From Robertkochia marina (GTDB lineage Bacteria; Bacteroidota; Bacteroidia; Flavobacteriales; Flavobacteriaceae), in the NCBI RefSeq assembly GCF_004799345.1, contig NZ_SSMC01000003.1, positions 372,001 to 436,000 on the forward strand: a DNA stretch of 64,000 nucleotides, given 5' to 3'. Below the pieces are notes generated by a model that was given only the letters and a program-made list of their open reading frames with translations, had not been told where the DNA came from and ran no database searches. The position numbers were made by a program, and so were the translations under genes. The first letter of the stretch is position 1. Every line of letters begins with the position of its first letter. Below, piece after piece: positions 59,024-64,000 of this stretch.

Positions 59024-59383
59024 ATGGAAACTACACTGATCAGATCCAATTTCGAGCAAGCCCTTCAATGCCTGGAAGCGGCAAAGAACGAGTTAAACCG
59101 CCCTGCCGAAGATGTGGTGCCCTTTATGGTGTGCAGAAGCGCCCGCAATTCAATTTCCCATTCCTTAATGGGATTTTTATTGAAGAATGATACCGTGTTG
59201 AATGAGGGGGAATCTCTCGATGTACTCCTTGAAAAATGCAGGACTCTTGATAAAAGATTCCTGGAATTCGACCTGAGTCCATTAGAATTTGACAAGGATG
59301 AAGAATACAGCGCTGAACCCGATAAGATGGAAAGTTGTATTGACCTGGCCTTGTTTGCAAGACAACTGGCAGGAGCTTCTTAA
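59024..59383 (+). CDS. Hypothetical HEPN-like helical protein
   Basis: 119 residues, all-helical by pattern: FEQALQCLEAAKNELNRP, a second helix with MVCRSARNSISHSLMGFLL, a third segment ESLDVLLEKCRTLDKRF, and a last helix ESCIDLALFARQLAG. Order and spacing resemble HEPN domains, and RNSISH fits the R-x4-H ribonuclease motif with a polar residue after Arg, although it lies in the second helix rather than the usual position near the last, so it may be coincidental. It is 53 bp before the pyruvate:ferredoxin oxidoreductase and probably co-transcribed. Function unknown. Confidence 0.7.
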   Translation: METTLIRSNFEQALQCLEAAKNELNRPAEDVVPFMVCRSARNSISHSLMGFLLKNDTVLNEGESLDVLLEKCRTLDKRFLEFDLSPLEFDKDEEYSAEPDKMESCIDLALFARQLAGAS

Positions 59384-59436: not shown

Positions 59437-62400
59437 ATGACCAAGGCCTTATTAGAGAAAATCGGAATAAGTAAAAAATCGGAAGCCTCCGCTGCTAAGG
59501 GCGCTTCCAAATACAAATATCCGGGAAAACCGGTGGCAATGGACGGTAATACGGCTGCCATTATGTGTGAGCGCGAGTCTACCGATGCCGCAGGGGCATT
59601 TCCCATTACCCCCTCTACCCAGATGGGGGAATATTGGGCAGATGCTGCCGCCAAGGGGCATTTAAACATCTCAGACAAACCCCTGATCTTTATCGAGCCC
59701 GAAGGGGAGCATGCAGCCGCAGCGGTTACCGCCGGACTTTCCATGACAGGGTTGCGAGCGGCAAACTTTTCCTCAGGACAGGGAATAGCCTATATGCATG
59801 AGTCGCTCTATGCGGCGGTAGGAAAACGTCTGACCTATGTACTTAATATAGGTGCGCGTGCCATGACCAAATCAACCCTGAACGTGCACGCCGGTCACGA
59901 CGACTACCACGCTGTTGATGACACCGGGTTTTTCCAGATGTTCGCTAAAAAAGCACAGCATGTAGCCGATCTTAACATCATAGCCCACCGCATAGCAGAG
60001 TTGGCATTGACTCCCGGGATCATTGCCCAGGACGGGTTTTTAACCACCCACCTGATAGAATCATTTATGCTGCCGGAAAGGGAATTGATCAAAGAGTACC
60101 TGGGGCGTCCTGATGATATCATCAAAACCCCCACTCCGGCCCAACGTATTATCTATGGCGAAACACGACGCCGTATTCCGGAGCTTTGGGATGTTGATAA
60201 CCCGGTTATGGCCGGGATCGTACAAAACCAGGACTCCTATATGCAGAGCGTTGCCGCCCAGCGTCCCTTCTTCTTTGATCATATACAGGAGCTGACCGAC
60301 CGGGCCTTTGAAGAATATGCCCAGCTTACCGGAAGGCGCTATAAAAGGGTGATGACCTATAAAACCGAAGATGCTGATTACCTGATCCTGGGGCAGGGAA
60401 GCCTGGTGCCCAGTGCAGAGGTAGTAGCCGATTACCTGCGCGAAACCCGGGGCATTAAAGTAGGGGTGGTTGACCTGGTGATGTTCCGGCCTTTCCCGGC
60501 AGATTTGCTGGCTAAGGTTTTAAAAGGCAAAAAAGCGGTGACCATCCTGGAGCGTCTCGATCAGCCCCTGGCTGTTGATTCTCCGATCACCAGGGAGGTG
60601 AGAAGTGTCTTGAACAAATGTGTCGAGAACGGTGCCCATAAAAAACAACACCCTTATCGCGAACTTATCTCCTATGCGGTAACAGATATGCCCGCCATTT
60701 ATTCCGGTTCTTTTGGTATGGGTAGCCGTGACCTGCAGCCCGAAGGTATTATCGGCGCTGTTGAGAACATGCTTCCCGACGGGAAACACAAAAAGAATTT
60801 TTATCTCTCCATAGATTTTATCAGGGAGGTGGCCAATTCACCAAAACAGAAGGCCTACCAGGAATCTATTGCAGCCTCTTACCCGCATGTAAAGGACCTG
60901 TCGGTACGCGGCTCAGAAAATCCTAACCTGATGCCTAAAGACGCCATTACGGTGCGTTTTCACTCCATTGGTGGCTGGGGTGCCATTACCACAGGAAAGA
61001 ACCTGGCCATGACCTTATATGAATTATTAGGGTATAACATTAAAGCCAATCCGAAGTATGGTTCAGAGAAAAAGGGACAACCCACCACCTATTACCTGGC
61101 AGCGGCTTCAGAACCTATCCGCATTAACTGCGAATATTATTTCGTAGATGTGGTGCTCTCTCCCGATCCCAATGTATTTAAACATACCAATGCCCTTGCA
61201 GGGCTGAAACAGGGTGGAAGCTTTATTATACAAAGTGACCGTAAAACCCCTGAAGAGGTATGGGCCGATATACCGGAGTTCTATCAGAAGATCATCATTG
61301 ATAAAGAGATCAAACTCTTCTATATTGACGGATTCAAGATCGCCCGCGAAGAGGCCACCGACCCCGAATTACAGTTGCGTATGCAGGGTATTGCCTTCCA
61401 GGGAGCATTTTTTGCCGCCTCGCCCTTAATGGAGAAATCCGGACTTTCCGAAGAAAAACTATTAAAAGCCATCGAAGACCAGTTGCAGCATAAGTTCGGT
61501 ACCAAAGGGCAACGGGTGGTCGAGGATAATATGCGGGTGGTAAAACGCGGATTCGATGAGGTCGTTGAGATCACTGAAAAGGAAGTAGGAGCGGGTAATC
61601 AGACCAATGGCAGTGTTCAGGAAATGCCCCCTGTACCTCAAATGCTGAAGGAAATTCCCCAAAGTGAATCCAAATTGAGTGATATTCACCGTTTCTGGGA
61701 GCAAACCGGGAATTTCTATCTGCGAGGCATGGGGAATGATAACCTCACCGATCCATTCATCGGGCTGAGTGTGATGCCGGCGGTAACATCGGTATTCCGC
61801 AATATGACAGGCATCCGCTTTGAACACCCTAAATGGATCCCGAATAACTGTACCGCCTGCGGTGATTGTTATACCGTATGTCCTGATACCGCCATTCCGG
61901 GTCTTGTGAGTGAGGTGTCTGATGTTTTCGATACTATCGTAACACGGGTTAAAAAGAACCACGGTAAGCTGGAACACTTGCCCAGAGCCGTGCGTAAACT
62001 CGAGAGTAACGTAAGAACCCTGTTCAAAACATCCAATAACGGGGCTACCGTCAATGAAAATATCAAGAATGCCATAGAAATGACCATCGCCGATCTTAAA
62101 GGCAATTCCGAAATGGTTAAGGAGTTTGATTGGTTCAAAGAGGAGTTGGGGGAATTCAATTTCGCCTTAACCCGGCCTTATTTTGACCTTCATGAGAAAA
62201 AAGAAGAAGGCAGCGGAGGTTTGTTCAGTATCACCATCAACCCCAACACCTGTAAAGGATGTATGGAATGTGTGGCCGTGTGTAACGACAATGCCCTGAT
62301 CAAAATTCCGCAAACAGAAGGTTCTGTGGTAGAATTGAACAAGCAATGGGATCTCTGGAATGCCCTGCCCAATACACCTCAGAAATTTAATCGCATTGAT

Positions 62401-64000
62401 GATCTGGAAGAAAAGATAGGTCCGCTGGAAACACTCCTGCTCAATAAAGATGCTTACCTGAATTTTGCCAGTGGAGACGGAGCGTGTTTGGGATGTTCTG
62501 AAAAATCGGTGGTGCACATCTTTACCGCCACGGTAGAGTCGCTGATGCAGCCGCGTATAGAGAAACATATGGCCTACCTTGAAGAGCTTACCGATAAACT
62601 GGAGAAGCATGTCCAGGGGAAACTGATGGGTGGGGTAGATCTCACAGATTCTGCCACCATGGCCAAGATCGTTAGCGAGATGCAAAATGCTGATCTCACC
62701 ATGGCAGAGATCACCCGCAGGTTCGAATCTGAGAAAGGTGGAGAACCGATTGACCAGGAATGGCTGCGAAATATTACCCAGCTGCTGGCACAGCTGAAAA
62801 AGCTCAAATGGAAATATACCAATGGTACCTCCGGAAAAGGGCGTTCTAATATGGGAATGCTCAATGCCACAGGTTGTACCTCGGTTTGGGGCAGTACCTG
62901 GCCTTTTAACCCGTATCCTTTCCCTTGGGCCAATCACCTGTTCCAGGATTCTACCTCTATGGCCATGGGTGTCTTTGAGGGACATATGGCTAAAATGGCA
63001 GAAGGCTTTAAAGCCATTAGAAAAGCAGAGCTTATTCTTGATGGAAAGTACGACCCAACAGAACACGATGAGTTCTTTACCTATTTTACCTGGCAGCAAT
63101 TCACTGATGAAGAGTGGCTGTTGTGTCCGCCGGTGGTCACCCTCGGAGGTGATGGCGCCATGTACGACATAGGTTTCCAGAACCTCTCCCGTATGATGGC
63201 CTCCGGTAAACCGATCAAAGTGATCGTGGTTGATACCCAGGTATACTCTAATACCGGTGGGCAGGCCTGTACCTCCGGCTTTATCGGCCAGGTGTCTGAC
63301 ATGGCTCAATACGGTAAGGTTTGGAAAGGGAAGGAAGAACCCCGAAAAGAGATCGGCCTGATCGCCATGGCCCATAGAAATACCTACGTGTTACAAGGGT
63401 CTCTGGCCAATACGAGCCAGATGATAGAAGGATTTATCGATGGCTTAATGACCAAGCGTCCGGCTATATTTAACCTTTATACCACCTGCCAGCCTGAACA
63501 TGGGGTCGGTGATGATATGGGGGTAAACCAGGCGAAACTTGCTGTGGAATCAAGAGCCTATCCGGTCTTTAAATACAACCCGGATCACGGTATTAAAACC
63601 ACCGAGGCCTTTGACCTGTCAGGGAATCCGGATCTTAATAAAGACTGGCCGACCTATCGTTTAAAATACCTCGAATACGGACAGGAACGCACCATGGAGC
63701 TGCCTATGACCTTTGCCGATTTTGCCCTTACAGAAGCGCGGTTCAGGAAACATTTCCGCAAAGTACCCAGAGATGCCTGGAATGATAACATGGTATTGTT
63801 AGCTGAATTCCTTGACATGGAAGAAAGCGACCGAGAAGGTAAATTCCCCTTTATCTGGGCAGTAGACAGAGATCAAAAACTCAACAGAGTTTTGGTGGCT
63901 AAACCCATCGTGGAGTCCTGTGAGGAACGACGCGATTTCTGGTTGCTTCTGAAAGACCTTGCAGGCGTAGATGCTGAGCAGTCCATTGAGGAAAATTTGG
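59437..64000 (+). CDS. Oversized pyruvate:ferredoxin (flavodoxin) oxidoreductase, 3' end cut by window
   Basis: Oxidises pyruvate (or another 2-oxoacid) to acetyl-CoA with ferredoxin. Open from ATG 59437 to the window edge, over 1520 residues, already longer than usual NifJ (about 1170-1200). Order: pyrimidine-binding domain (MDGNTAAIMCERESTDAAGAFPITPS near 35), the gamma domain (RFHSIGGWGAITTGKN near 507), a ferredoxin-type cluster (NCTACGDCYTVCP near 806), a second (TCKGCMECVAVC near 939), the proximal cluster (GACLGCSEKS near 1014), and the thiamine diphosphate domain (GGDGAMYDIG near 1237; VYSNTGGQACTSG near 1270). Extra helical stretches separate the clusters. Pyruvate as substrate is inferred. 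Confidence 0.92.
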   Translation, partial: MTKALLEKIGISKKSEASAAKGASKYKYPGKPVAMDGNTAAIMCERESTDAAGAFPITPSTQMGEYWADAAAKGHLNISDKPLIFIEPEGEHAAAAVTAGLSMTGLRAANFSSGQGIAYMHESLYAAVGKRLTYVLNIGARAMTKSTLNVHAGHDDYHAVDDTGFFQMFAKKAQHVADLNIIAHRIAELALTPGIIAQDGFLTTHLIESFMLPERELIKEYLGRPDDIIKTPTPAQRIIYGETRRRIPELWDVDNPVMAGIVQNQDSYMQSVAAQRPFFFDHIQELTDRAFEEYAQLTGRRYKRVMTYKTEDADYLILGQGSLVPSAEVVADYLRETRGIKVGVVDLVMFRPFPADLLAKVLKGKKAVTILERLDQPLAVDSPITREVRSVLNKCVENGAHKKQHPYRELISYAVTDMPAIYSGSFGMGSRDLQPEGIIGAVENMLPDGKHKKNFYLSIDFIREVANSPKQKAYQESIAASYPHVKDLSVRGSENPNLMPKDAITVRFHSIGGWGAITTGKNLAMTLYELLGYNIKANPKYGSEKKGQPTTYYLAAASEPIRINCEYYFVDVVLSPDPNVFKHTNALAGLKQGGSFIIQSDRKTPEEVWADIPEFYQKIIIDKEIKLFYIDGFKIAREEATDPELQLRMQGIAFQGAFFAASPLMEKSGLSEEKLLKAIEDQLQHKFGTKGQRVVEDNMRVVKRGFDEVVEITEKEVGAGNQTNGSVQEMPPVPQMLKEIPQSESKLSDIHRFWEQTGNFYLRGMGNDNLTDPFIGLSVMPAVTSVFRNMTGIRFEHPKWIPNNCTACGDCYTVCPDTAIPGLVSEVSDVFDTIVTRVKKNHGKLEHLPRAVRKLESNVRTLFKTSNNGATVNENIKNAIEMTIADLKGNSEMVKEFDWFKEELGEFNFALTRPYFDLHEKKEEGSGGLFSITINPNTCKGCMECVAVCNDNALIKIPQTEGSVVELNKQWDLWNALPNTPQKFNRIDDLEEKIGPLETLLLNKDAYLNFASGDGACLGCSEKSVVHIFTATVESLMQPRIEKHMAYLEELTDKLEKHVQGKLMGGVDLTDSATMAKIVSEMQNADLTMAEITRRFESEKGGEPIDQEWLRNITQLLAQLKKLKWKYTNGTSGKGRSNMGMLNATGCTSVWGSTWPFNPYPFPWANHLFQDSTSMAMGVFEGHMAKMAEGFKAIRKAELILDGKYDPTEHDEFFTYFTWQQFTDEEWLLCPPVVTLGGDGAMYDIGFQNLSRMMASGKPIKVIVVDTQVYSNTGGQACTSGFIGQVSDMAQYGKVWKGKEEPRKEIGLIAMAHRNTYVLQGSLANTSQMIEGFIDGLMTKRPAIFNLYTTCQPEHGVGDDMGVNQAKLAVESRAYPVFKYNPDHGIKTTEAFDLSGNPDLNKDWPTYRLKYLEYGQERTMELPMTFADFALTEARFRKHFRKVPRDAWNDNMVLLAEFLDMEESDREGKFPFIWAVDRDQKLNRVLVAKPIVESCEERRDFWLLLKDLAGVDAEQSIEENL

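Follow-up and report, generated by a model that had tools for sequence, protein, structure and literature searches.

Why should a bacterium of a lineage regarded as aerobic encode a pyruvate:ferredoxin oxidoreductase (PFOR), and why one so much longer than NifJ? Such a gene begins near the end of the 64,000-nucleotide stretch of the Robertkochia marina genome analysed here (the window; positions 372001–436000 of contig C3, in a genome of 3.58 Mb) and is completed in the flank stretch L003 (C3:424001–444000). Aerobes are taught to use pyruvate dehydrogenase (PDH), which leaves the energy of the step from pyruvate to NADH unused, and PFOR and the ion pump Rnf are mainly seen as tools of anaerobes. 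Our reading, to which we assign a probability of about 0.6, is that in these bacteria, aerobic or facultative, the long PFOR passes its electrons to a ferredoxin tethered to it and from there to an Rnf pump encoded in the same operon.

Anatomy of the long PFOR

The frame opens with an ATG at 59437, runs for 1521 codons to the end of the window, in keeping with the more than 1520 residues counted in the initial annotation, and stops at C3:436398 (window position 64398). Window and flank together give a complete gene of 1653 codons (L003:7437–12398). Pfam finds POR_N, PFOR_II, POR (gamma), two Fer4 and TPP-binding domains, in the order of NifJ. The best NCBIfam model, the NifJ equivalog TIGR02176, scores 424.4 bits, under its cut-off of 911.35, and the best PDB matches are the PFORs of Moorella (1e-84) and Desulfovibrio africanus (3e-73). 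Judged by its domains and residues, the protein is a member of the 2-oxoacid:ferredoxin oxidoreductase superfamily, of the PFOR type.

Relatives were taken from one scan of bacterial genomes, in which the best 80 of 455 confirmed candidates were kept as loci. With the window these make 81 rows. Five under 1600 aa were dropped, four that end at contig ends (L050, L054, L055 and L071) and L058, which is complete and lacks the ferredoxin, leaving 76 rows of 1617–1720 aa for alignments and counts. The three internal clusters keep their 12 ligands in every one of these 76 rows; by homology, C1147 and C1351 are presumably the two ligands that join C1017 and C1020 at the proximal cluster. Equally invariant are YSNTGGQ and the equivalents of Thr31, Glu64 and Arg114 (the last being R141 here), which we take to be the catalytic residues of PFOR. 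Domain order, thiamine-diphosphate motif, catalytic residues and three [4Fe-4S] clusters are thus shared with the homodimeric PFOR/NifJ enzymes of D. africanus (1b0p), Moorella (6cin) and Escherichia coli (YdbK).

Unlike these enzymes, to which it is mostly 26–30% identical in the matched part, the long PFOR forms a clade of its own and carries inserts of about 80 and of 102 residues, a long C-terminus and a fused ferredoxin. From first cysteine to first cysteine, the two ferredoxin-like motifs lie 134 residues apart in the window protein and 131–140 apart in the 66 of 76 long rows matched by pattern, against 54–56 in all 31 classical NifJ sequences compared (30 from Bacteroidota, and YdbK). 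From C1020 to C1147 there are 127 residues in 73 of the 76 long rows, again matched by pattern, and 25 in all 31 NifJ. The initial annotation had estimated the first spacing at about 130 residues, against 50–60 in usual enzymes, and the second insert at roughly 100 residues (1035–1135); both estimates hold. It had also treated the gene as an outlier, which did not survive the comparison, the extra segments being standard in a whole class of enzymes of about 1650 residues. Relative to NifJ, the window protein also begins with about 30 added residues, and further extra segments follow residue 1390.

Two AlphaFold models of moderate confidence were built for L006, a close relative from Muriicola; their predicted local distance difference test (pLDDT) values are 64 and 71 and their predicted template modelling (pTM) scores 0.50 and 0.63. 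In them the inter-cluster insert forms four helices, and the 102-residue insert is mostly helical, with one helix of 46 residues (22–67 of model 2) and shorter ones. Fold searches covered chiefly the PFOR core, and we make no claim of new folds for the unmatched parts.

The fused ferredoxin lies outside the window, at about residues 1576–1653, with C1582, C1585, C1588 and C1624 as its ligands. Fer4_13, a family of ferredoxins with a single [4Fe-4S] cluster, matches residues 1581–1630 with 25.1 bits against a cut-off of 24.5. The four cysteines are invariant in the 76 rows, and 77 of the 78 rows that reach the 3′ end of the gene have the domain, L071 and L058 being part of that count. The domain matches D. 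africanus ferredoxin I (1fxr) in sequence (1.5e-4), and its model does so in structure, at 0.8 Å over 57 columns (E 6e-3) in one comparison and with Z 9.4 over 62 residues at 1.7 Å in a second. The single-cluster fold and the CxxCxxC...C ligands are shared with that protein; here the ferredoxin is a domain of a PFOR and has an extra C-terminal helix.

A conserved operon and its relatives

Directly 3′ of the long PFOR follow rnfC, rnfD, rnfG, rnfE and rnfA, overlapping or at most 16 bases apart, and behind rnfA come an open reading frame (ORF) for a 77-aa membrane-type protein, a flavoprotein gene resembling ferredoxin-NADP reductase (FNR), and rnfB (rnfC to rnfB, L003:12414–18743, + strand). 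The six-subunit core of the Rnf complex, as known from Clostridium tetanomorphum (7zc6) and A. woodii (9eri), is complete: RnfA, B, C, D, E and G all exceed their NCBIfam subfamily cut-offs, and RnfB matches both of those solved complexes. To these known complexes the operon adds the PFOR, the FNR-like flavoprotein and the 77-aa protein with its conserved cysteines. The only RnfC_N match above cut-off in the window's genome is the rnfC of this operon; one weaker match lies below it.

RnfC comes downstream of the PFOR in 73 of the 80 loci, and six of the remaining seven end no more than 401 bases past the PFOR gene. Downstream sequence of 7.5 kb or more is available for 55 loci, and all of these have rnfC-D-G-E-A-FNR in that order, with rnfB behind the series in 47 and before the PFOR in eight; the 77-aa ORF is recognisable in 51. 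Because this order is kept across phyla, even with two different positions of rnfB, it argues for the PFOR and the rnf genes being a functional unit. RnfB (L003:17877–18743, + strand) differs from that of known Rnf in lacking the ligands of one [4Fe-4S] cluster, the last motif, as do all 58 aligned RnfB rows (the window and 57 of the 59 loci where RnfB was found).

The long form is wide but patchy in its distribution, with matches at 1e-50 or better in three of 199 genomes of the window's family and two of 296 in a phylum sample, the window's own included in each. Going by the titles of the records, it occurs within Bacteroidota in Flavobacteriaceae, Cyclobacteriaceae, Saprospiraceae and relatives, Flammeovirga, Persicobacter and Marivirga; other hosts are Calditrichota, KSB1, Myxococcota and Gammaproteobacteria, including Halieaceae and methanotrophs, several of these records being metagenome-assembled genomes (MAGs). 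In a tree made by a quick method, with three NifJ rows on long branches, the long form is one well-supported group outside the NifJ clade. The methanotroph sequences nest among Cyclobacteriaceae in this tree, a sign of possible transfer. In the same tree, the long PFOR of a gammaproteobacterial MAG (L035:9995–14908) nests among Saprospiraceae and sits, by eye, among mobile-element-like ORFs, and that of a MAG labelled Rickettsiales (L037), probably a mislabelled bin, lies very near a Marinoscillum sequence. A comparison with plasmid records gave no near match.

The nearest relatives found are PFOR-like enzymes split over two genes, from three further genomes of Bacteroidota (G001, G006 and G016); they are 38–53% identical to the long PFOR in matched segments and form its sister clade. 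In the two of these genomes that were analysed gene by gene, the pair encodes about 650 and 525 aa. The two-gene enzymes have a shorter inter-cluster segment and lack both the 102-residue insert and the ferredoxin; no Rnf gene was found near them in the 17–18 kb stretches examined. The simplest history would be a fusion of such a pair, insertions and the gain of a ferredoxin, in an order that we can only propose.

The C-terminal module recurs elsewhere in the window's genome. KorX, the third gene of an operon for the 2-oxoglutarate oxidoreductase KorA-KorB, is homologous to residues 1171–1652 of the long PFOR, ferredoxin included (27% identity, 7.5e-55; hhalign probability 100%), and has neither the thiamine-diphosphate motif, nor the proximal-cluster cysteines, nor a counterpart of the two-cluster domain. 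The hhalign match to the long family begins just behind the 102-residue insert; signs that KorX shares this insert come only from single tblastn matches in two loci (L046 and L071). KorA adjoins the PFOR-Rnf operon in seven loci (L046, L049, L057, L058, L071, L083 and L119), followed by KorB in all five where the sequence reaches far enough. Genome G135 has a block in which a 1372-aa long-PFOR homologue keeps eight ferredoxin-type cysteines, has lost the proximal-cluster cysteines and the thiamine-diphosphate motif, and aligns over both insert regions; a PFOR homologue that appears catalytically dead thus sits inside an Rnf operon. From KorX in the window's genome and this block, as far as homology can tell, a ferredoxin-bearing C-terminal module and, in part, linkage to Rnf are common to several 2-oxoacid oxidoreductases.

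Table 1. Features of the long PFOR, its neighbours and its degenerate homologues; positions without a prefix are those of the window.
Feature	Position	Strand	Basis or remark
Small ORF of 119 aa, conserved, immediately before the long PFOR	59024..59383	+	Homologue search
Long pyruvate:ferredoxin oxidoreductase, 1653 aa	59437..64000; gene end 398 bases past window	+	ORF, Pfam, PDB matches
First ferredoxin-like motif, C805-C808-C811-C815	61849..61881	+	Invariant in 76/76 rows; also in the NifJ and split (two-gene) rows compared
Enlarged helical inter-cluster segment, about residues 821–922, limits approximate	61897..62202	+	Alignment, model
Second ferredoxin-like motif, C939-C942-C945-C949	62251..62283	+	Invariant in 76/76 rows
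Proximal-cluster cysteine pair, C1017/C1020	62485..62496	+	76/76 rows
Helical insert of 102 residues, about residues 1036–1139, between proximal Cys pair and C1147	62542..62853	+	Missing from the NifJ and two-gene sequences compared
Thiamine-diphosphate motif, GGDGAMYD to YSNTGGQ, residues 1237–1276	63145..63264	+	YSNTGGQ invariant in 76/76 rows
Start of C-terminal extension, from about residue 1415	63679..64000	+	Runs past the window to the fused ferredoxin
77-aa ORF between rnfA and the FNR-like gene	L003:16703-16936	+	One hydrophobic segment, nearly invariant CxxCxC...C
KorX, 814 aa, third gene of KorA-KorB operon, window's genome	L004:1820-4264, contig C1	-	Homology to long PFOR
G135 block: KorA, KorB, 794-aa frame with the same ferredoxin at its end, rnfB, 1372-aa degenerate long-PFOR homologue, rnfC	L162:3397-14986, contig C71		

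Proposed electron route and alternatives

The data establish how the long PFOR is built, which of its residues are invariant, what operon it heads and where it occurs; what we infer is its substrate, the route and direction of its electrons, and the scaffold role of its added segments. The enzyme would decarboxylate pyruvate with thiamine diphosphate and coenzyme A, and two low-potential electrons would run through the three internal [4Fe-4S] clusters to the ferredoxin on the C-terminal linker. The tethered ferredoxin would feed the Rnf of the same operon, from RnfB to RnfC to NAD+, with the pumping of Na+ or H+, and the FNR-like flavoprotein would be a second, non-pumping outlet to pyridine nucleotide. 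Bacteria that possibly keep PDH too would in this way have another path from pyruvate to NADH, one that conserves energy, the gain over PDH being an ion gradient drawn from the pyruvate-to-NADH drop.

Haem-copper oxidases score over cut-off in all 21 long-PFOR genomes tested, from which we conclude that the hosts respire oxygen. The initial annotation had read the inserts as a hint that, in a lineage normally considered aerobic, the enzyme has extra partners or a changed acceptor for its electrons. These oxidases, the fused ferredoxin, the downstream Rnf and the FNR-like flavoprotein agree well with that idea; an effect of the inserts themselves on the electron path is conjectural, the moderate-confidence models showing helices only. 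PFOR use under oxygen beside PDH is described for a cyanobacterium, whose PFOR works with separate ferredoxins and, in the available part of that report, without mention of Rnf (PMC8887894). In Methylococcus capsulatus, a CRISPR interference screen, as far as its accessible text goes, found a putative Rnf complex to be important, one that need not be linked to a PFOR (PMC13108547).

Probably the tethered ferredoxin, Rnf or both dock on a scaffold formed by the helical inserts and the C-terminal extension. The inserts might instead be purely structural, making oligomer contacts or shielding the clusters from oxygen, without any bearing on the acceptor. They do adjoin the clusters, and the tested hosts carry haem-copper oxidases; this is a possibility of some weight, if on balance a doubtful one, and it is compatible with electron transfer to Rnf. 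What speaks for docking is that the long clade combines the 102-residue insert with the ferredoxin and the Rnf operon, none of which was found in the two-gene sister, and that the degenerate homologue in the G135 Rnf operon aligns over both insert regions.

Several observations weigh against the proposed route. In the window's genome E1-type (PF00676) genes are present too and may belong to a PDH; with isocitrate lyase, which is present in the same genome (the only one examined for it), they make the PFOR route probably an alternative and not the sole one. L058 (L058:10001–14624) is a complete frame of 1530 codons without the ferredoxin domain, with rnfC starting directly behind it, so the tether is not indispensable; this locus is a natural test case for it. 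L035 is the sole true exception to the operon, with no Rnf within 4.9 kb downstream. The docking place of the ferredoxin is not visible in the models, which are of moderate quality. The cluster loss of RnfB recurs in 13 of 19 other RnfB from Bacteroidota (12 without that of G135; nine further sequences are uncounted) and is therefore no sign of adaptation to a PFOR partner, and we rejected the idea that a cluster had been traded for the tether. A separate KorX was found in one of the three long-PFOR genomes of the family sample, the window's own, and in four of 20 other long-PFOR genomes tested, namely Allomuricauda and Flagellimonas, with the ferredoxin, and two Marivirga, at about 600 aa and without it; the other 16 gave the long PFOR alone, and the KorX part is accordingly not general. 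Finally, the direction of the electrons could be reversed.

In that case Rnf, driven by NADH and the ion gradient, would supply the tethered ferredoxin with electrons, and the long PFOR would act as a pyruvate synthase fixing CO2 onto acetyl-CoA. Rnf runs both ways, and in reverse in the aerobic Azotobacter, according to the available part of a 2025 review of RNF and NQR (PMC12174285), and so low-potential a reaction might well benefit from a tethered ferredoxin. We nevertheless consider the reverse direction unlikely; the window's genome, with its isocitrate lyase, could do without a pyruvate synthase when acetyl units are the growth substrate.

A similarly improbable reading makes the FNR-like flavoprotein the main acceptor, taking pyruvate electrons to cytoplasmic NAD(P)H, with Rnf merely balancing the pools. 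The gene is in its place in all 55 loci with enough sequence, and the nearest solved relatives of its product are plant-type ferredoxin-NADP reductases; in every one of these loci, however, it is joined to a whole Rnf operon. The protein is of the FNR family, as are plant-type FNR, PetH and BoxA, and it falls below every listed NCBIfam cut-off, FNR and BoxA included. Plant-type FNRs hold the 2′-phosphate of NADP with an Arg and an Arg-x-Tyr. The residues here are only partly alike: opposite that Arg our alignment has a Pro, with a conserved Arg one residue on, and opposite Arg-x-Tyr it has Asp-Pro-Ile, without the Tyr. Use of NADP is therefore doubtful, and NAD(H) may, on this slender indication, be the partner.

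Supply of electrons to nitrogenase, as by NifJ and Rnf in some diazotrophs, is very improbable, since nifH scores over its curated cut-off in two of the 21 long-PFOR genomes tested, both methanotrophs, and does not do so in the window's genome, for which we reject this reading; in its favour, por, nif, rnf and rsx genes are up in one CH4/O2 condition in M. buryatense 5GB1, as the available part of that study reports, at loci that may or may not be the PFOR-Rnf operon (PMC7154130).

Neighbouring genes and implications

The 119-aa ORF, perhaps a PFOR-associated helper, has the conserved motif R..EDVV...VC, and a homologue of it immediately precedes the long PFOR in 40 of the 80 loci (43 by a looser search). 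One more homologue adjoins a classical NifJ, in a different genome from the same family (L121:8797–9123). The ORF gave no Pfam or NCBIfam match, and we discarded a HEPN assignment, R-x4-H not being conserved. The 77-aa ORF likewise has no Pfam or NCBIfam match; it is reminiscent of NqrM. The order rnfCDGEA-FNR matches nqrABCDE-nqrF, which we assume here to be the nqr gene order. The presence of rnfB together with an FNR-family gene in one rnf operon may be relevant to the origin of NQR, a link weakened by the NCBIfam comparison, in which the FNR-like protein is not closest to NqrF. The core subunits of RNF and NQR are equivalent, according to the same review (PMC12174285).

A classical NifJ of G135, in an open frame of 1730, was considered as a further fusion and rejected, as its extra length looks, by eye, like a GC-rich open frame without a domain. 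A scan for promoter-like sites (10, with 16.9 expected) and terminator-like sites (25, with 15.2 expected) was not used.

PFOR, Rnf and ferredoxin are themselves already known; the fusion, the inserts and the fixed operon we found undescribed. The searches of open-licence literature, subscription papers being outside our reach, gave no description of these three, of the degenerate ferredoxin-bearing partners, or of a function for the long class, which does exist as a class; the available part of the 2025 review makes no mention of a PFOR-ferredoxin fusion, of the inserts, of the operon or of the degenerate partners (PMC12174285).

More speculatively, and with little confidence, we suggest that PFOR and, through KorX as a catalytically dead adaptor derived from PFOR, KorAB might plug their tethered ferredoxins into one Rnf/FNR complex, a membrane-bound 'oxoacid respirasome'. 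The electron-adaptor role of KorX is itself conjectural. If such a complex existed, both oxoacid decarboxylations leading into and round the tricarboxylic acid cycle would be ion-pumping in aerobes, and the inserts and dead subunits would be its scaffold.

If the simpler proposal is right, Flavobacteriaceae, Cyclobacteriaceae, Saprospiraceae, methanotrophs and Myxococcota would have, in this conserved fusion of PFOR and ferredoxin coupled to Rnf, an ion-pumping site that precedes the respiratory chain. The fused carrier might show how low-potential electrons are kept away from oxygen. Our analysis suggests that these hosts may conserve energy that most aerobes, on the usual view, forfeit at the same step.

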